From the IMG/VR virus record IMGVR_UViG_3300005663_000062, positions 1-51,197 of that record: a stretch of 51,197 bases of DNA; one strand, written 5' to 3'. The notes below the pieces were generated by a model. It did not search any database. It was not told where the DNA came from and saw nothing but the letters and a program-made list of their open reading frames with translations. Positions 1,691 through 46,010 of this stretch are shown here, one piece after another. The translations under genes and the position numbers were made by a program. Source of the DNA: a virus. The number at the start of each line of letters is the position of its first letter. The stretch's first letter is position 1.

Positions 1691-3244
1691 TTAAACCTCT
1701 TGCTTATACATCTTAATTGTTGTTACAAGATTATGTTTTGCATCAATAAAATCGGGACACATTGTTAATACTCTGTGCAGGCATTCGACGGCTCGTCTAT
1801 ATTCACCATTTATTGTATAACAAGCCGCCAAATTCATTAAAATGTGTATATGGTTAGGACTGCATTTTCTCGCGTACTCGAAAGACTCTAATGAATTATC
1901 TAAATCTCTCTTTGTTAGAAATGCAACTCCACGATAATAGGCCAGCGGCATTCCAGCCCTGTCAAGATTGGCTAAGAATGGTAAATTATCTGTTACCGAT
2001 ATAACTCTGTCCCAATTTATATTTCTGGCACGATATATTTCCACGCTCTTCATAGATGTCTGAAGTTTTATAGTAAATCCAATTACGCACAATACAAGAA
2101 GCGCGATAGCACCGGCCGTATAAACTCTCTTAAACTTAATCAAAGCAGGTTTGTAATCTTTCATAGCAAGGGCAAAGAATATCATTAACAAAAACCACAG
2201 ATACGCCCTATGGCTCGGAAACGTAAAACAAGCGAAGGTTATATAACCAGCTATTCCAGCCCTTATTGCTCCACGACTGTAATATAGAGCTAAAATAAAG
2301 AGCAGTAAGTAGCTTGCAAATCCAAATATTCCTATTTCTGACCATTCCTGAAGAAAGTCGTTATGCGCCCATCCGATAAGTTTATTTTCACCATTACTGC
2401 CAATCTTATAATTTATATTTGCCCTCGTTTCCGGAGATGAATACTTTGCGTATAGCGGGAATATCAATTTCCAGTTTCCAGCACCAACTCCGGCAGGATA
2501 GTCCTTAATCATAATTGCAGTCTGCTTCCATATCTCTAATCTCTGCCCTAACGAACTGGTATTGTAGATGTCATTGCCTTTGCAAACTATAACCCCTAAT
2601 AGCAATAGGCCGCACAATGAAGGAATAAGATATTTCCTGTTAGATAAAGCAAATACTATCAATGCTGCGAATAACGCTAACCAGCTCGAACGCGCTCTGA
2701 GTGAGATTATCACAAACAAACTTAATCCAATAGCTACTAAAGAAGGAATCTTCCATTCTTTGTAGTAGTAGCTGCACAGTATCATCAAAAGCACAATGGA
2801 TGCAGCATTGAGATTCTTGCTATCCATTATCCCGACCCTTACTGCAATTGATTTAGACGAGAACTCATAAATACCATACAAGCCAAGGCATATAGTTGTC
2901 AGAATAATGACCTTGGCAATATTCAATTTCTTCAAGAGAGTTGCCAAACAGAGCATAATCAACATTGCATTGAACATTGAAAATGACCGGGAAATACTCT
3001 CGCCTTTATTAACAGCGAAACATATCGAATATGTCAGCCATAACCAGTAAGCTAAGTATGCGAGAAATACAGGATGCTTTAAGACGCCGAAATCTACTTT
3101 TACGAGAACTAAAAGCATTAGCGTCATTACGCCAAGCATTAACTGCCTTGCGGCCAAGTCACGACCATCTACATAACCATCAACAGAGACGGCGAGACAA
3201 AGCACTAATCCTGCAATAAAAACTATATTGGCACACCTAAGCAT
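1691..3244 (-). CDS. O-antigen ligase/polymerase-like membrane protein with C-terminal TPRs
   Basis: About 517 residues with roughly ten hydrophobic segments. Wzy_C/O-antigen-ligase features: RARSSWL near residue 183, GVGAGNW near 252 and AHNDFLQEWSEIGIFG near 293, in a large periplasmic-loop context. Residues about 430-515 form TPR-like helices (YRGVAFLTKRDLDNSLESFEYA; then LAACYTINGEYRRAVECLH). Members transfer or polymerise undecaprenyl-linked glycan at the outer face of the inner membrane. Start chosen at ATG 3244 with GGTGGA upstream; the frame stays open to 3298. The gene overlaps the small membrane ORF upstream by 22 nt. It sits among capsid and tail genes, a remarkable place for host-envelope cargo. 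Family call confident, acceptor unknown. Confidence 0.85.
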   Translation of the reverse strand: MLRCANIVFIAGLVLCLAVSVDGYVDGRDLAARQLMLGVMTLMLLVLVKVDFGVLKHPVFLAYLAYWLWLTYSICFAVNKGESISRSFSMFNAMLIMLCLATLLKKLNIAKVIILTTICLGLYGIYEFSSKSIAVRVGIMDSKNLNAASIVLLMILCSYYYKEWKIPSLVAIGLSLFVIISLRARSSWLALFAALIVFALSNRKYLIPSLCGLLLLGVIVCKGNDIYNTSSLGQRLEIWKQTAIMIKDYPAGVGAGNWKLIFPLYAKYSSPETRANINYKIGSNGENKLIGWAHNDFLQEWSEIGIFGFASYLLLFILALYYSRGAIRAGIAGYITFACFTFPSHRAYLWFLLMIFFALAMKDYKPALIKFKRVYTAGAIALLVLCVIGFTIKLQTSMKSVEIYRARNINWDRVISVTDNLPFLANLDRAGMPLAYYRGVAFLTKRDLDNSLESFEYARKCSPNHIHILMNLAACYTINGEYRRAVECLHRVLTMCPDFIDAKHNLVTTIKMYKQEV

Positions 3245-3384
3245 CGAAGAATCCACCAAAATAAGGCTATCAGGAAACAAATAAGGCAAAGAGGCCAAAG
3301 AACTAATACTGCACCAAAGACAAATATAGTACGTATAACGTCTTTGGCCTCTAAACTATGCCTATTCTGTACAGGATAAGCCAT
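3223..3384 (-). CDS. Small membrane protein, 53 residues
   Basis: ATG at 3384, stop TAG at 3225-3223. The middle is a long hydrophobic stretch (IRTIFVFGAVLVLWPLCLI then CFLIALFWWIL) that could be one or two membrane segments. It starts two bases after the secreted beta-helix gene and its 3' end overlaps the ligase start by 22 nt, so the two are likely translated together. AGGAAAAG lies upstream at rather long spacing. It may assist the ligase in the membrane, like small Wzx/Wzy partner or Gtr-type proteins in seroconversion cassettes; this is inference from position. Confidence 0.6.
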   Translation of the reverse strand: MAYPVQNRHSLEAKDVIRTIFVFGAVLVLWPLCLICFLIALFWWILRCLGVPI

Positions 3385-9546: not shown

Positions 9547-11292
9547 TTACACGCCTACCGCCTCTCCTATCGCCGCCAGAGGCGAGCCTTCGGCTGTTTC
9601 GCCTTGTAACTTCGGTACGCTGTCAGCCATCTGCTGAGCTTCCTGTAAAGCCTGCTGTCTTGCCAACTCCTCTGCCCGTTGCTCTCGTATCTCTTCGACT
9701 TGTGCCGTTGACCTCATACCCTCCTGTGGGAAATCACTCGCATCAAGTAGGGCTTCGCTGAGCCAGTCTTCATCCACTCGGTCAACTATGTTCGGAAACA
9801 GAACTGAAGCCTCTGCAATTTCTCGCAACCCGTTCTTTATTGGCTGTAATATAAAGAGTCTTCTTTGCGCCTGAGCGAGTGGGCCGGTGAAACGGACGCT
9901 GATTTTAGTCCTTTGATTGCCACGCTCCTTTTCCTCTTCGATTCTGTCAACTAATATCTGGGGCGGCTCAGGTAATCTTCCTGCCTTATTTTCAATATCA
10001 GCAACAATATCGAAGTTCTTACTAAGGCCATCTTCTGTGAGTCTATCGACCTGCGGCCCCATTAACTGCGCCTGCTCGGATTTTATCTCTATAATCTCGG
10101 TAGCCGTGGCCTCGCCCTGCCTTCCGATAAAGGCGTTGAAGAACTCCACCCTGTATCCACCGTTGATGAATCTCTCGTAATACTGCTCTCTGTCGAGACC
10201 TACGGGGAAATTACTTCCGGGGTTAATGACCTCTATCTTATCTCCGCCTCTTTCAAAGTAGTTGTTACCGTCAGCGTCCATTCTCACATGACCCCTCTGG
10301 GCTTCAGGGACGTTACGCGCGGGTCTTACCGCTAACTGTGAAGCCTGCAACAGGGTCTTACTGATAGTATTCAACTTTTCAATCGCTACCATGAAGTCCA
10401 TTGCCGGAGAGTAACCGTAGATTTCGTCGCTATTTTTCCTGAATCTCCACACAGCGTAAGGGAATACATCGTAGCCACTCTCTTTAACGATGAGGTCATT
10501 CATGCCGTCACCTACGCCAGCTAAAAGAATCTCCGAAGTCTGGTTGGGATCGTTAAAACCTCCGGTCGAACCTTTGGTCTGGACGTAAACCGACTTGAAC
10601 TTCTTATTAGTTGAAGTGATAGAACCGAACTGAGGTTCATCGTTGGGATAGACCGCATGGATGAATTCGTGTTTCTTCTCAGGATTGGAAATGGCGTTCT
10701 GAGTAATATCGTTAGTCAGTCTGTTCTCGTCGAACATCTGCACAGCCTGTCTTGCGGTTAGGAAGAACTTCCTGAAAAGGACATCGACGTTCTGAAACTT
10801 ATTCTCGGCAATAAAAACTTCTCTCAGGTGGATAGGTATGTGGACTGTCGTACCGCCTTTAATATCCTCCTCGACGTACATCGTAGCCGTTCCAATCGAA
10901 CCTGCATCGTTAAACCATTCATTCAATACAGAGTAGAAGTTCGACCTGTCGTAAGCGGCGTACATCGCCTCGTCGTATTCCTGTAAGAATATTCTCACCT
11001 CGTCAATATCGTTCAGGGTATGGTCGCTCATCTCAGACTTGAACCATCTGAGAGACTTCGATACCATGAAGCCCTGCATCCCATCCCGCCATATCCCCAA
11101 AGCACTCGCAGGGGTCGGGTCGAATATCGCCTTACCTCTCTTCTGACCCTTCTTATCGTTTCTCGAAGAGTCTCGTATCAGTTCCCTTCTGGGATTGGTA
11201 AACGAAGCCGCCTGCTGGATAAGAGGCTCGTAGTCCCGCTTGACCTCTTCAAGTTGTTTCTGTCTCAGTAAGATTTGTCCCTGACCGCTCAT
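9547..11292 (-). CDS. Portal protein (head-tail connector family)
   Basis: 581 residues, the usual length for the T7 gp8-like head-tail connector family. Motifs in order: KRDYEPLIQQAASFTNPRRELI, PTPASALGIWRDGMQGFMVSKSLRWF, LNEWFNDAGSIGTATMYVEED, then YPNDEPQFG, YPFAVWRF-type segment FPYAVWRFRKNSDEIYGYSP, RPARNVPEAQRG, and GRQGEATATEI. Twelve copies form the genome gate. The C-terminal 60 residues are Glu/Gln-rich coiled coil. Start ATG 11292 overlaps the upstream stop by 4 nt. Confidence 0.92.
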   Translation of the reverse strand: MSGQGQILLRQKQLEEVKRDYEPLIQQAASFTNPRRELIRDSSRNDKKGQKRGKAIFDPTPASALGIWRDGMQGFMVSKSLRWFKSEMSDHTLNDIDEVRIFLQEYDEAMYAAYDRSNFYSVLNEWFNDAGSIGTATMYVEEDIKGGTTVHIPIHLREVFIAENKFQNVDVLFRKFFLTARQAVQMFDENRLTNDITQNAISNPEKKHEFIHAVYPNDEPQFGSITSTNKKFKSVYVQTKGSTGGFNDPNQTSEILLAGVGDGMNDLIVKESGYDVFPYAVWRFRKNSDEIYGYSPAMDFMVAIEKLNTISKTLLQASQLAVRPARNVPEAQRGHVRMDADGNNYFERGGDKIEVINPGSNFPVGLDREQYYERFINGGYRVEFFNAFIGRQGEATATEIIEIKSEQAQLMGPQVDRLTEDGLSKNFDIVADIENKAGRLPEPPQILVDRIEEEKERGNQRTKISVRFTGPLAQAQRRLFILQPIKNGLREIAEASVLFPNIVDRVDEDWLSEALLDASDFPQEGMRSTAQVEEIREQRAEELARQQALQEAQQMADSVPKLQGETAEGSPLAAIGEAVGV

Positions 11293-14196: not shown

Positions 14197-14237
14197 AAAA
14201 AAAGAACCGCATAGGTGTATAGCCCTATACGGCTCTT
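14197..14237 (-). terminator. Strong intrinsic terminator just before terL
   Basis: On the minus strand a 13-bp stem (14236-14224 with 14215-14203; two G-U pairs, no mismatch) encloses an 8-nt loop and runs directly into seven Us (plus-strand A run 14197-14203). The two wobble pairs become A-C mismatches on the other strand, so it is meant to act on leftward RNA. Transcripts from upstream should stop here before terL unless antiterminated. Confidence 0.85.
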
Positions 14238-19819: not shown

Positions 19820-20023
19820 AACTTTTCACCCAGACTACAAACGGGATAAGACCGTTTTAATGACACGATACGAATAAACTTCTGCTCTTGCGTCAATACC
19901 TTAGCTAATTGTATATCCCTTTAGCAGCCTTATCCCCGGGTATGAATCTGTAGGATAATCGTCTGTGTGGCATTTGTTAGTATCGAGCAGCATAGACATA
20001 TTTTGACCTTACGTGTCTTTGGT

Positions 20024-20115
20024 CGAGCGGAGCTTTGTATATCGTCGCTCTGTTACAGTTATAAGAAAAAAGACAGGCCATCCGAGTTTCTGATATACAA
20101 AGCGGGTGACCTGTC
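20024..20115 (-). ncRNA. Interlocked-helix (pseudoknot-like) leader element with terminator-type hairpin
   Basis: Helix b is 12 perfect bp (20032-20043 with 20092-20103). Helix a (20025-20029 with 20046-20050) and helix c (20072-20077 with 20110-20115) each interleave with b, in the order a b a' c b' c'. On the minus strand helix c is followed by six Us (20071-20066), like a long-loop terminator. It lies just downstream of the leftward promoter, so it would be at the 5' end of leftward RNA, where cis-acting antitermination or attenuation elements sit. Confidence 0.5.
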
Positions 20116-20150
20116 ATTATATCTTTTATCATATTACTCCATCATTCTGT

Positions 20151-20180
20151 AATATGTTCGTTTTCGACGCCGTGTGTCAA
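20151..20180 (-). promoter_or_regulatory. Leftward promoter
   Basis: Minus strand TTGACA at 20180-20175, 18-nt spacer, CATATT at 20156-20151. The -35 is consensus, the -10 matches four of six. RNA would start near 20144. Confidence 0.5.
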
Positions 20181-20204
20181 TTCGACAGCCTGCTTATTCG
20201 ACGC
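20163..20204 (+). repeat. Three TTCGAC repeats
   Basis: TTCGACGC 20163-20170, TTCGACAG 20181-20188, TTCGACGC 20197-20204, spaced 18 and 16 bp. They surround the -35 of the leftward promoter and may be an operator. Confidence 0.45.
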
Positions 20205-20223
20205 AGTCACGACGATAAAACCT

Positions 20224-20253
20224 ATTATAAATCACAAACGCGCAATAAAGCAA
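20224..20253 (-). promoter_or_regulatory. Second possible leftward promoter
   Basis: Minus strand perfect TATAAT (20229-20224) with a poor -35 TTGCTT at 20253-20248, spacer 18. Confidence 0.35.
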
Positions 20254-20356
20254 ATGTATTCTAAAATAATCTCTTATTTTCTTATAAATATACTCCTTGA
20301 TATTGAGCCAATAACAGCGATATTGATACAAAATATTAACTTGACGAATAATTTTC

Positions 20357-20385
20357 TTTACAAGTGAGTAAATATTGACGATAAT
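20357..20385 (+). promoter_or_regulatory. Rightward promoter of the plus-strand island
   Basis: TTTACA 20357-20362, 17-nt spacer, GATAAT 20380-20385: five of six matches in both boxes. Start expected near 20392, and the TCGACCAAA motif (20399-20407) follows at once, a natural operator position. Confidence 0.65.
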
Positions 20386-20398
20386 ACTTTTATGTTAA

Positions 20399-20407
20399 TC
20401 GACCAAA
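20399..20407 (+). promoter_or_regulatory. TCGACCAAA motif, copy in leader of first rightward gene
   Basis: Within TTAATCGACCAAATTAA, 26 nt before ATG 20434. Other copies: 20018-20026 (minus), 20694-20702 (plus), 21240-21248 (minus). Confidence 0.55.
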
Positions 20408-20433
20408 TTAATCACTTATGAAGGGAATTGAAA

Positions 20434-20646
20434 ATGTACTACCACGTCAAAACCAATTACGACCAGTTAAAACCAAACGACAGATTTACTGTAAGATACG
20501 ATAACAAGCTTATGACTTGGCAGGAATACCTTGAAGCCAAAAGGCACGGACTTTGCAAGGTGCTTTCTGATATGTGGGCAGCAAATCAACACGATAGCAA
20601 AGTATCGTTTACCCTTAACTATCCTGTCTGGAAATGGCAGGCTTAA
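20434..20646 (+). CDS. Small protein, first gene of the rightward island
   Basis: 70 residues. ATG 20434 chosen for AAGGGA at 7 nt; a TTG two codons upstream is too close to it. Sequence MYYHVKTNYDQLKPNDRFTV ... MTWQEYLEAKRHG shows a small alpha/beta protein without known motif. Probably early-expressed given its promoter. Confidence 0.65.
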   Translation: MYYHVKTNYDQLKPNDRFTVRYDNKLMTWQEYLEAKRHGLCKVLSDMWAANQHDSKVSFTLNYPVWKWQA

Positions 20647-20690
20647 AATCCGCAGGGCGGGGATTTGCGAATCCTCTGCCTTATGTATTT
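20647..20690 (+). other. Competing hairpins between the first two rightward genes
   Basis: GGATT at about 20661-20665 can pair with AATCC upstream (20647-20651) or with AATCC downstream (20670-20674, loop TGCG, extended by GGC/GCC). The second form ends before a T-rich stretch. A terminator/antiterminator pair is possible. Confidence 0.4.
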
Positions 20691-20731
20691 TAATCGACCA
20701 AACATTAACTAAACAGAAACGAGGTGGAATT

Positions 20732-21205
20732 ATGAGTACGAGAAGTCAAATTGTAATTAAAGGTTGTTTTGATGATGAAATAGTATTTTATCGTCATTGT
20801 GACGGCTATCCAGAAGTATCTATGGCTCCATTACAGAAGCTAATGGACTGGATGCGCCGTGGAATCATCAGGGATAACGCCGAGCAGGCTGCTGGATGGC
20901 TTATTCTTATCGGAGCAATAGAATACGCTACAATTCCAGAATATGAGCTTGAGCCGAACGACAAGGCTTGGAAACGATATGGCTTGATTGAGACTATCAA
21001 AGACCCTACCGACTGGAAGTGCGGAGCCTATGAGCCAGCAACTTGTCGCCACGGAGATATTGAATTTCTTTATATCCTTGATTTGAAAGAGAAAACAATA
21101 TCTTGTTACACAACACATTTTGACGGCGTGGGGTTCCCAGACAAAGAAAAAGACAAGCTCCAGTTCGTCGATACTGCCGAAAATCCGTGGAAAGGCAAAA
21201 GCTAA
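20732..21205 (+). CDS. Conserved phage protein of the MSTRSxI...YRHxDGYP family
   Basis: 157 residues. MSTRSQIVIKGCFDDEIVFY RHCDGYPE at the N-terminus identifies a small family common in phages and some bacteria (MSTR..i ... vYrHwDGYPe). The remainder includes WLILIGAIEYATI and FLYILDLKEKTISCY. Its role is unknown. ATG 20732 has GAGGTGG at good spacing; a TCGACCAAA motif lies 29 nt before it. Confidence 0.7.
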   Translation: MSTRSQIVIKGCFDDEIVFYRHCDGYPEVSMAPLQKLMDWMRRGIIRDNAEQAAGWLILIGAIEYATIPEYELEPNDKAWKRYGLIETIKDPTDWKCGAYEPATCRHGDIEFLYILDLKEKTISCYTTHFDGVGFPDKEKDKLQFVDTAENPWKGKS

Positions 21206-21214
21206 ACACAAACC

Positions 21215-21277
21215 GCTTGCCATCGGCTCAATTCTCTGATTTGGTCGATTGGTTTACAAGCCGGTGGCAGGCTTTTT
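21215..21277 (+). terminator. Long-loop terminator in the rightward island
   Basis: A 14-bp stem (21215-21228 with 21259-21272; two G-U pairs on the plus strand only) encloses a 30-nt loop and is followed by TTTTT (21273-21277). The loop contains an inverted TCGACCAAA motif (21240-21248). Placed between the 157-residue gene and the zinc-ribbon gene. Confidence 0.6.
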
Positions 21278-24556: not shown

Positions 24557-25240
24557 TTACTCCTTTTCCATACATATTACATCTTCCCAGTCGATTTTCG
24601 GTGAGCCTTTGGCCTCGGCCAGTCTGCATTTAACTGTCCTTTTTCTGCCCGGATTTTTTGGCCTGTGGTCAACGTTAGATTTCAGTAGTGGCCTATGCGG
24701 GCAATAACCGTAAAAGCCAAGTGCTATGTTGCAATTCAAACACAAACAACGATATTTATCTTTTGGAAACCCCTGTTTTTTGATGTCTTGATATATCTTT
24801 CGGCCTTTACCGCATCTCGCTCTATGCTCAGCACCATCGCCGTTTATGTGGTCAATAGTCAAGAACTCAATATGCTTCTCTCCGCAACATTCACACTTAC
24901 TACCATAAGCAGACATCACTTCTTTTTTTAAGGCTTTATCCTTCTCTTTAAGTCTTTTGATAATATCTATCTTGTTTCGTTTGTAATAACTTAAAGCTTG
25001 CCCTCTGATTTTGTCAGCATTTTTCCGATAATGCAAAGCATCTTTATCTTTCTTCGTCCTCAATACACCATCTCCGCCATTGGCTAAAGATAAAACTTTG
25101 CGCCGCCCATGCCCCGCACAAAAGGTGCTGCAAAAATAATGGCCTGTCTTTGTGGTCTTTTTTCGGTTACTGGCATAATCTATTACGAGTACGCCACAAT
25201 GACCACATTTGAACTTTATTCTTTTGGCTTTTGTGTGCAT
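24557..25240 (-). CDS. HNH endonuclease with methyltransferase-like tail
   Basis: About 227 residues. N-terminal zinc ribbon (CGHCGVLVI ... CSTFCAGHG), a Lys-rich linker, then a typical phage HNH: CECCGEKHIEFLTIDHINGD, HRARCGKGRKIYQDIKKQGF, YRCLCLNCNIALG. The last 22 residues, RLAEAKGSPKIDWEDVICME.., copy the end of the adjacent methyltransferase (RLAESKGSPPINWEMVICTQ). ATG 25240 lies inside the methyltransferase 3' end (25-nt overlap) with GGGAAA upstream. Fits a homing gene that invaded the end of its neighbour. Confidence 0.8.
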   Translation of the reverse strand: MHTKAKRIKFKCGHCGVLVIDYASNRKKTTKTGHYFCSTFCAGHGRRKVLSLANGGDGVLRTKKDKDALHYRKNADKIRGQALSYYKRNKIDIIKRLKEKDKALKKEVMSAYGSKCECCGEKHIEFLTIDHINGDGAEHRARCGKGRKIYQDIKKQGFPKDKYRCLCLNCNIALGFYGYCPHRPLLKSNVDHRPKNPGRKRTVKCRLAEAKGSPKIDWEDVICMEKE

Positions 25241-32035: not shown

Positions 32036-32084
32036 AGGGACGGGCTTTTAGTGGAGGAAAGGAGAAAGGATTTGACCCGTCCCT
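32036..32084. other. Long-loop hairpin in intergenic gap
   Basis: AGGGACGGG (32036-32044) pairs with CCCGTCCCT (32076-32084), 9 bp, 31-nt purine-rich loop. The gap 31973-32124 has no ORF. Resembles the other long-loop stems of this genome. Confidence 0.4.
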
Positions 32085-44364: not shown

Positions 44365-46010
44365 CTTATGATTGAGTCCAGCATCCTCTTTATAACTTCA
44401 ATGCCTATATTCTTTTTCTTGCCAGTACCCTTCTTTATTGTTTCACCTTCTTTGGTGAATATCCCTAGTTCTATGGCTTCATCCATAATCCTTTGAGCTT
44501 CTGCCGTTTTGCCTTGTTCTCTCAGGGAAGTCATTAATTTAGTGATACTTTCTTGTTGCTCTTTGAGAGTCTTAGCTAATCTTAACGACCTCGCACTTGC
44601 GGCGTTAAGTTGTTGTACTTCAGATAAAGTATATCTTCTTATCAAATTATCTACTTGAGCATCCAATTCTTTTTTGTCGAATTCGCCCTCTCTGAATGCA
44701 TCGTTAAGTTCTATAACTGCTGTATTGGCAAAGTCCTTTAATATTTCTGCCGCAACGTCATCGCCGAAGAAGTTAGGTTGCTTCTCTATGGCATCCCTAA
44801 GTTGCTTTTCTCTTTCGCCTAATATCTCATTCTGTCTCACCAACTCTACTCTCTTTGCAGTTTCTCCGGCTGCGAATATATCATTTATGAATCCCTTTCC
44901 ATCTGTCCCATTTACTCCCTCAATCTTTGATATGACTTGATATACTTCCAATCCCCTATCTACCGTCATCGAGCCTGTCTTAACAGCATTTATGACTCTC
45001 AATGCCTTTATTCTGGTAGAATCAGATGTGACAATATCTTCGCCGTCAGGTTCTTTAATTGCTGAATTCCAGGTTGTGTAAAATGTCTTTATCTTATCAA
45101 CTGCCTTTATCGCATCTTCATTGGATATGGTCGGGTCAGATAGTATGAGTCTTGCAAATTGCTCTATATCAGCCTCGGAACCTAACTGGACTATCTGTGA
45201 ATAACTTGTCTCTACAGCGGCATTGGCCGCATTAACAGAATTTACATCCCTCTGGTTTACCCTTGCCCTCTCAATAGTATTTATATTAGATAGTCTTGCC
45301 TGTTTCTCTGTAGGAGTAAACGCCTCAGTTGAATTGGTCAGATTCTTAGCATCTTCATATCTTCCAACATTTACAAGAGAATCTATAAGTATTCTATCTC
45401 TCGCTCTCGCCATTTCTCCCGGAGACCAATATGGTGCCATGCCCTCCTCTATAATGCTCAGTGTTGGGTCTTTGAGTATCTCCTCTAATGGAACTCCGGC
45501 ACCAGCTAATACCTGAAACTTATTAGAATATTGCCTCATTGTATCGGCCTGACCAAACTCAACTTCCTTTCTCCATACTATTCCCTCAATCTGGCGTAAC
45601 GTTGTTTGCTTGTTAGTTTTAGAAAAATTGTCAAACAACTGCCCTGCATTCGGACTCATTTTGCTTATAGATAATCCTACTTGAGTATCTAAGTCTGCTT
45701 CGGTCTGCTTTCGGAACTCAGGAAATTGCTCTATACTTGTAAACGTCGTCCTTCTCGCCTCATCTATTCTGTCGGCAACAAATTTATCGTAATCACCATT
45801 AGCACTCGCAAGAGAGGCGTCGTCACGTATTTTCTGCTTATCCAGTTCTACCTTTAGTAGAGCTTGCCCTATATCACTCACGCCCCTGCCAATGGCCTGC
45901 AAGCCCTGTCCTATCGCTCCTGCGCCTATATCGGCAGCACCAACAGGAAGCGGTGCTTTGCCTACCGGCTGTGGTGTAATTTTCGCACGAAATTTTGGAA
46001 TCGGTGGCAT
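44361..46010 (-). CDS. Internal virion protein (gp15-like position)
   Basis: 549 residues. Pro-rich start (IPKFRAKITPQPVGKAPLPV), Gly-rich linker, then helical repeats throughout (TNKQTTLRQIEGIVWRKEVE; QADTMRQYSNKFQVLAGAGV). Long helical proteins of this size precede gp16-type genes and are ejected with it to form the periplasmic conduit. Assigned by size, composition and place. ATGA overlap with the giant gene. Confidence 0.65.
   Translation of the reverse strand: MPPIPKFRAKITPQPVGKAPLPVGAADIGAGAIGQGLQAIGRGVSDIGQALLKVELDKQKIRDDASLASANGDYDKFVADRIDEARRTTFTSIEQFPEFRKQTEADLDTQVGLSISKMSPNAGQLFDNFSKTNKQTTLRQIEGIVWRKEVEFGQADTMRQYSNKFQVLAGAGVPLEEILKDPTLSIIEEGMAPYWSPGEMARARDRILIDSLVNVGRYEDAKNLTNSTEAFTPTEKQARLSNINTIERARVNQRDVNSVNAANAAVETSYSQIVQLGSEADIEQFARLILSDPTISNEDAIKAVDKIKTFYTTWNSAIKEPDGEDIVTSDSTRIKALRVINAVKTGSMTVDRGLEVYQVISKIEGVNGTDGKGFINDIFAAGETAKRVELVRQNEILGEREKQLRDAIEKQPNFFGDDVAAEILKDFANTAVIELNDAFREGEFDKKELDAQVDNLIRRYTLSEVQQLNAASARSLRLAKTLKEQQESITKLMTSLREQGKTAEAQRIMDEAIELGIFTKEGETIKKGTGKKKNIGIEVIKRMLDSIIR

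Follow-up and report, generated by a model that had tools for sequence, protein, structure and literature searches.

The window analyzed here is a virus record of 51,197 bases with a PF12236 portal gene and podovirus-like tail genes. Leftward genes run from ~19.8 kb to 0.4 kb and a short rightward series begins at 20.43 kb (Table 1). Promoter-like hexamers lie just upstream of the element under study, which bears out, at the level of predicted signals, the claim of the initial annotation that the element directly follows a promoter; its claim that the promoter serves a long operon containing terminators holds as well, as the element heads the leftward series and a strong terminator lies within that series. 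Pre-terminase terminators resembling this second one are found in many relatives (L003 3938-3971, L014 8743-8776, L017 4692-4729, L031 534-569, and others) and possibly represent a point that late transcription must pass. An integrase search of 12 records including the window gave no match while its positive control was found, and a search of the 12 records for a T7-type RNA polymerase gave none, but its positive control was silent too, so that this result carries no weight. The window terminase had no relatives among viral contigs, and terminase alignment A2 had none among genome contigs.

Table 1. Features of the leftward element and of the rightward system in the window.
Feature	Position	Strand	Basis
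Terminator directly ahead of terminase gene, second strong one of the leftward series	14202-14237	-	Similar hairpins in many relatives
51-codon ORF (MIKDIM...), GGAG ahead of ATG, spanning the whole element; possible leader ORF	19977-20132	-	ORF list
9-mer TCGACCAAA, equal to partner sequence of rightward terminator loop, beside hairpin a	20018-20026	-	Exact-match count
Hairpin a, displaying b3' in its loop	20025-20050	-	5-bp stem GAGCG/CGCTC, sequence
b3', complement of terminator loop, past U-tract, in hairpin a	20032-20043	-	Sequence
Helix c, big-loop intrinsic terminator (predicted)	20072-20115	-	12/13 pairs, 18-nt loop, TTTTTTC; -18.1 kcal/mol
b5', 12 nt, terminator loop plus one stem base	20092-20103	-	b duplex -14.7 kcal/mol
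Promoter-like hexamers TTGACA-18-CATATT, leftward RNA	20151-20180	-	Consensus scan, 10/12
Perfect TATAAT, alternative promoter element slightly farther upstream	20224-20229	-	Consensus scan
Promoter-like TTTACA-17-GATAAT, rightward RNA	20357-20385	+	Consensus scan
Rightward partner 1, TTAATCGACCAAA, presumed RNA 5' end	20395-20407	+	Sequence
Rightward partner 2, TTAATCGACCAAA	20690-20702	+	Sequence
Rightward big-loop terminator (predicted), 14 bp, 30-nt loop, TTTTTATATT	21215-21272	+	Stem scan, energy computed

Both strands of 20018-20144 were read, and the minus strand was taken as the RNA strand because a T run directly past the stem is present only there. On the leftward RNA, the order of the strands is c5'-b5'-c3'-UUUUUUC-a5'-b3'-a3'. 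Helix c, with arms GACAGGTCACCCG and CGGATGGCCTGTC, is a GC-rich hairpin followed directly by a U run (20066-20071), as in the definition of an intrinsic terminator. Helix b consists of 12 perfect pairs between GCTTTGTATATC (b3') and GATATACAAAGC (b5'), with arms 48 nt apart; b3' lies 28-29 nt past the stem of helix c, within the small hairpin a, whose weak 5-bp stem joins GAGCG (20025-20029) to CGCTC (20046-20050). Coordinates and topology agree with the initial annotation, which had described a perfect 12-bp helix b interleaved with a and c, and helix c with six Us as terminator-like. The ORF spanning the element is without relatives in viral contigs and without a Pfam match.

The window contains two perfect inverted repeats of 12 bp or more whose arms are 20-100 nt apart, one of them the present element, versus 0.2 per shuffle (40 dinucleotide shuffles of the 51-kb window; highest count in any shuffle, 2). 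The other such repeat, at 3290-3352, was rejected as a second interlocked case: it is a plain long hairpin across the start of the leftward gene 1691-3298, and it is the sole window match in a mismatch-tolerant scan of loops and partners. On the minus strand at 32036-32084, a further big-loop hairpin has a C/T-rich loop, TTTCTCCTTTCCTCC, that complements Shine-Dalgarno-like sequences, one of them ~50 nt downstream. The sequence of the element itself had no match in searches of phages, plasmids or Rfam, which counts against an attenuator reading. The Rfam 15 families gave no match in the window at the gathering threshold, and a sub-threshold mir-16 match at 20350-20429 (E<=1) was taken as chance.

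The window holds a second system on its rightward strand. Its terminator stands after two genes, and the loop carries TTTGGTCGATT (21240-21250), the complement of both TTAATCGACCAAA partners. The distance between this terminator and its partners, 0.5-0.8 kb, is unlike the compact modules of the relatives described below and counts against the attenuator reading. The 9-mer TCGACCAAA, which the rightward partners share with the leftward strand beside hairpin a, has four exact copies in the 51 kb, all inside 20018-21248; because the copies are confined to this stretch, we rejected the idea that it is a promoter motif of a phage polymerase. Cross-talk between the divergent leftward and rightward transcripts through the copy at 20018-20026 is possible. 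After the first or second rightward gene, a kept hairpin (AAAATCCGCAGGGC...GCCTTATGTATTTT) shows paired changes between phages (window 20644-20692; L002 5208-5258; L004 ~3710-3665; L005 ~4225-4180).

The first relative, L002, was reached via a homolog of the window gene at 20434. Ahead of this homolog lies a terminator-like hairpin whose loop complements the presumed RNA 5' end over 15 bp. Further loci were collected with the L002 terminase (11), with an alignment of eight terminases (best 80 of 187), with a second alignment (best 80 of 106) and with the window portal (10); many loci from the terminase and portal searches were the same contigs, and repeats of one contig were removed. Isolate phages had portal or terminase identities of only ~23-37% among the matches listed. 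The scan covered a first set of 84 records, the window among them (945,593 bases), and a new set of 25 records (289,393 bases). It listed stems of 8 bp or longer that have a loop of 13-45 nt and are followed by a T-rich tail, and matched each loop against the 60 nt on either side; in the control, loops were matched with flanks from other records.

Complementarity between loop and flank clearly exceeded this swapped-loop control. In the first set (221 stems), upstream pairing reached a score of at least 22 in 20 cases versus 2.8 expected and of at least 26 in 11 versus 0.4, and downstream pairing reached at least 22 in 11 versus 1.9 expected. The new set (25 contigs, 62 stems) gave five upstream cases at this threshold versus 0.65 and one downstream case versus 0.44. 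The upstream-partner cases are placed in a strand-specific manner: 20 of 25 lie within the 377 kb that precede the packaging genes and on the minus strand, opposite to the terminase (P 3e-12), two lie on the plus strand of the same 377 kb, and three lie in the 807 kb behind the packaging genes. This count covers 108 of the 109 records (the window is omitted), includes near-duplicates such as L018/L019, and assumes a boundary 3 kb before the portal for the long-flank portal-based contigs L091, L093, L095 and L099. In seven whole records, mismatch-tolerant scoring gave 5, 3, 2, 2, 4, 0 and 1 hits, some of which are not clear modules, versus 0.17, 0.67, 0.67, 0, 0.17, 0.17 and 0.17, respectively, in shuffles. 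Two observations count against the attenuator reading: of the 44 contigs that extend 3.5 kb or more upstream, only 16 have a strong rightward module, and the downstream-partner hits in relatives are not strand-specific and are partly re-readings of other hairpins.

The clear class of loop-partner terminators is found on rightward transcripts, where the partner occupies the RNA 5' end and in many cases falls in a leaderless upstream ORF. Its typical order is a promoter, a partner of 8-17 nt close to the start site, a linker of 8-40 nt that is often A/C-rich, a GC-rich stem whose loop contains the complement of the partner, a U-rich tail, a Shine-Dalgarno sequence and an ATG. Such modules also lie off the divergent promoter region in other records (G007 44655-44734 (+); G009 2913-3019 (+) and 9813-9895 (+); G001 24731-24808 (-)), and the G001 module is followed by sequence resembling the start of a tRNA gene. 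On the minus strand of L105, two ~80-nt modules stand in tandem (1377-1453 and 1686-1760) with different private pairs, each ahead of a Shine-Dalgarno sequence and an ATG.

Architecture is retained between phages while the paired letters differ. In 18 of 21 minus-strand units (L019 was left out as a near-duplicate, and L133 and L088 as ambiguous), loops scored a mean of 27.3 with their own partners versus 11.1 with those of other phages, and only 4 of 306 cross pairs reached the lowest own score. The paired blocks are private to each phage and yet complementary. L002 and L004 differ in helix b by a T-A to G-C change on both sides and a C-G to U-G change; L046 and L047 share their promoter sequence and have different 13-14-nt partner blocks, each of which fits its own loop. 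In L013 and L105, the whole ~80-nt module is kept while flanks and downstream gene differ; the module can keep its sequence between unrelated neighbors. The strand-specific U-tract, together with relatives having the same architecture and compensatory changes, supports reading the window element as RNA-type.

We consider it about an even chance that the element is a promoter-proximal RNA attenuator in which a big-loop terminator is combined with a lock complementary to its loop, and which would pair with its own or with sister transcripts. In this model, polymerase from the leftward promoter would either stop at c, yielding a short RNA that displays the loop, or read through c, yielding an mRNA in which the loop of hairpin a holds the lock b3'. 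Because b3' is made after c and the U-tract, helix b in the window cannot decide the termination of its own molecule; leftward pairing would be possible only after the terminator decision, and loop and lock would therefore meet either in trans, between a terminated RNA and a read-through RNA, or later in cis. Such pairing may affect how the leader is translated or how stable it is, or may act back on termination. On rightward transcripts, the lock is at the RNA 5' end and is made first, so that b could form before c3' appears and pairing could pre-empt c during synthesis. Calculated energies are -14.7 kcal/mol for b and -14.6 kcal/mol for c with its loop kept open in the window, and -9.9 to -26.2 and -15.3 to -31.7 kcal/mol, respectively, in 13 other units; being of the same order, they are similar in the way that a switch would need. 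Termination at c, pairing in the cell and an effect on downstream genes are what we infer from sequence.

The upstream ORFs bear on an alternative in which a ribosome on the leader ORF decides between b and c, making the private complementarity an internal antiterminator only. Among 38 rightward units (28 from the first set, 7 from the new set and 3 added by hand), an ATG coincides with the partner segment in 25, and 21 of these 25 have a frame that stays open through the stem, versus 30 of 88 other frames (Fisher P 9e-6). The leader ORFs are leaderless on rightward RNAs and begin with an SD-led ATGATA on several leftward ones; often they end overlapping the next start (ATGA in L014, L039, L068, L082, L099 and L091), and the window ORF spans the element. 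All this is in agreement with control by translation. However, the peptides differ between phages with no overall conservation and the L105 module is kept while its ATG is absent, and it therefore appears to be the RNA, not the peptide, that is kept; moreover, b3' in the window lies beyond the terminator, and control in cis alone leaves the fast divergence of the paired blocks unexplained. We regard a purely translation-controlled attenuator as unlikely. A reading of the U-tract as a frameshift site was dropped, as the hairpin is on the wrong side.

The leftward heads of the relatives form a smaller and less uniform set than the rightward modules, and the loop-partner arrangement was not seen in the closest relative of the window, L091. 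Leader terminators stand at the homologous place in the window, L014, L015, L060, L070, L073, L091 (read by eye), L093 and L133. A downstream partner pairs over 12 bp in the window, 15-16 in L015, 12 in L073 (one wobble), 14 in L133 and 8 in L070, and L093 combines 9 bp upstream with a weaker downstream pairing (10, with wobbles, score 21). No clear nearby loop partner was found in L014, L060 or L091 in an inspection made partly by eye, which counts against the attenuator, as does the fact that no equivalent of the weak hairpin a was noticed by eye in L015. In five heads (window, L014, L015, L060 and L073), ATGATA reads into the stem, again as judged by eye. The leftward loop of L014 also matches 13 nt lying 367 nt upstream; this match was discarded as a copy within a terminator facing the other way. 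A leader stretch (CTCCAGA...TCTTCGGA...TGGA) upstream of the leader terminator is common to L070 (1-400) and the leftward leaders of L005 and L015, and in L070 a tRNA-like end lies between this stretch and the terminator.

These heads allow that the element is an ordinary promoter-proximal terminator and its 12-bp complementarity a coincidence or a relic, in line with a terminator kept in L014, L060 and L091 where a partner is not always found, and with an exact window element that has no sequence relative in which covariation could show. Against this, 12 perfect pairs at such a spacing are expected 0.2 times per 51 kb, and several relatives share the loop-partner relation at the homologous place. 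We hold this explanation to be improbable, somewhat more so than translational control.

A third alternative is that the inverted repeats act as DNA, forming an operator bound by a protein, with the hairpins a side effect. The sites are at promoters, and 4 of the 18 loops share TTGG. Yet the paired blocks are private, their direction is fixed relative to U-tract and start codon, and an HTH_3 protein is absent from 11 of 12 records, the window included. The types of mismatch also point toward RNA: when G-U and A-C were scored alike, rows followed by a Shine-Dalgarno sequence and an ATG contained 12 G-U and 3 A-C mismatches (one-sided P 0.018; summed by hand, with the near-duplicates L018/L019 included). 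This excess is suggestive only, because looser or otherwise selected counts are nearer even: when all rows are taken in which T behind the stem outnumbers A before it, the ratio is 15:9, 9:9 and 5:8 at thresholds 8, 9 and 10. We did not use as evidence a ratio of 19:3 from 33 curated units, since most of these units had been picked up by scoring that favors G-U. Altogether, an operator is very unlikely.

The initial annotation had compared the element to the cis-acting antitermination RNAs of phage HK022. Part of that interpretation is supported, namely an RNA-type element that heads a long leftward series with a terminator; kinship or likeness to put is not. Put RNA binds to the zinc-binding domain of beta' and prevents termination at distant terminators. 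According to PMC9378689, it consists of two stem-loops in ~70 nt that bind RNA polymerase, with putL and putR sharing sequence. The window element resembles putL and putR in being a structured RNA near an early phage promoter and ahead of further terminators. It differs from put as described there (PMC9378689), with its two polymerase-binding stem-loops, conserved sequence and no such interlocked helix: the window leader is a terminator hairpin interlocked with a weak 5-bp hairpin, and the paired blocks of the relatives share no sequence. Because the pairs are private, no fixed polymerase surface is conserved, and because b3' is downstream of the terminator, b could form in cis only after polymerase has passed or stopped at c. 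With neither the shared sequence nor the two-hairpin core, a put-like RNA is the least probable of the explanations and is not supported.

For the attenuator that we prefer, P4 CI RNA and IsrK are the closest working models. One segment of the P4 leader bears the name seqB. According to PMC4825925, the leader segments, among them seqA and seqC, complement one another, and base pairing of CI RNA to sites on the P4 leader brings about premature termination of this transcript. The leader segments found here are likewise complementary. With respect to partner sites, the likeness extends to L093, with leftward partners upstream and downstream, and to the rightward system of the window, with two upstream partners, whereas the leftward element of the window has a downstream partner only. 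In contrast to P4, the complement here is in the loop of a predicted intrinsic terminator, which on rightward RNAs immediately precedes a gene, and there is usually one partner instead of two. A stable short RNA that is processed from an untranslated transcript and causes termination is a feature of P4; no processed CI-like RNA is known from the phages here, and the 12 records searched gave no integrase.

IsrK of the Salmonella prophage Gifsy-1 is a terminated short RNA whose target is the read-through mRNA that starts at the same promoter, and an upstream ORF in that system is coupled to the gene that follows (PMC4825925). The same combination is predicted here, but Rfam reveals no sequence relation and the effect of IsrK, as given there, is on ribosome access (PMC4825925). 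The fit to IsrK is thus one of anatomy, a terminator with a partner beyond it, and the transcripts here are predicted. In the IncI-alpha repY/repZ pseudoknot with its antisense Inc RNA, a loop pairs with a distant complement, an upstream ORF is coupled to the next gene, and loops are private; its hairpin is not known to act as a terminator, and the opposite strand is the source of the antisense RNA. The few rightward loops with TTGG resemble the UUGGCG loop motif reported for that system.

In the literature within reach, which mostly excluded subscription journals, we found no account of a phage terminator whose loop pairs with the leader that carries it. An Rfam scan of seven relatives returned one tRNA and nothing else, and loop-leader terminators of phages that are private in sequence and conserved in architecture are without a matching Rfam family. 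If such terminators are functional, their searchable signature would be architecture instead of sequence, and they would be missed by sequence-based libraries of RNA families.

If the pairing works, a large uncultured group of podovirus-like phages would control its first transcripts by terminators that recognize their own leader, and such terminators would provide a testable RNA route to self/non-self recognition among phages. Nearly all paired letters change while complementarity stays, a pattern expected under selection against cross-recognition, as in plasmid antisense control. It is tempting to speculate, although we think it rather unlikely, that these leader RNAs with their private loops act in trans only on leaders of the same phage, as a widespread, protein-free system of copy counting or superinfection immunity carried on a movable cassette of ~80 nt that is re-used ahead of several genes. 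Early transcription would then be kept in check according to how many sister genomes the cell contains, in phages without a recognizable integrase.
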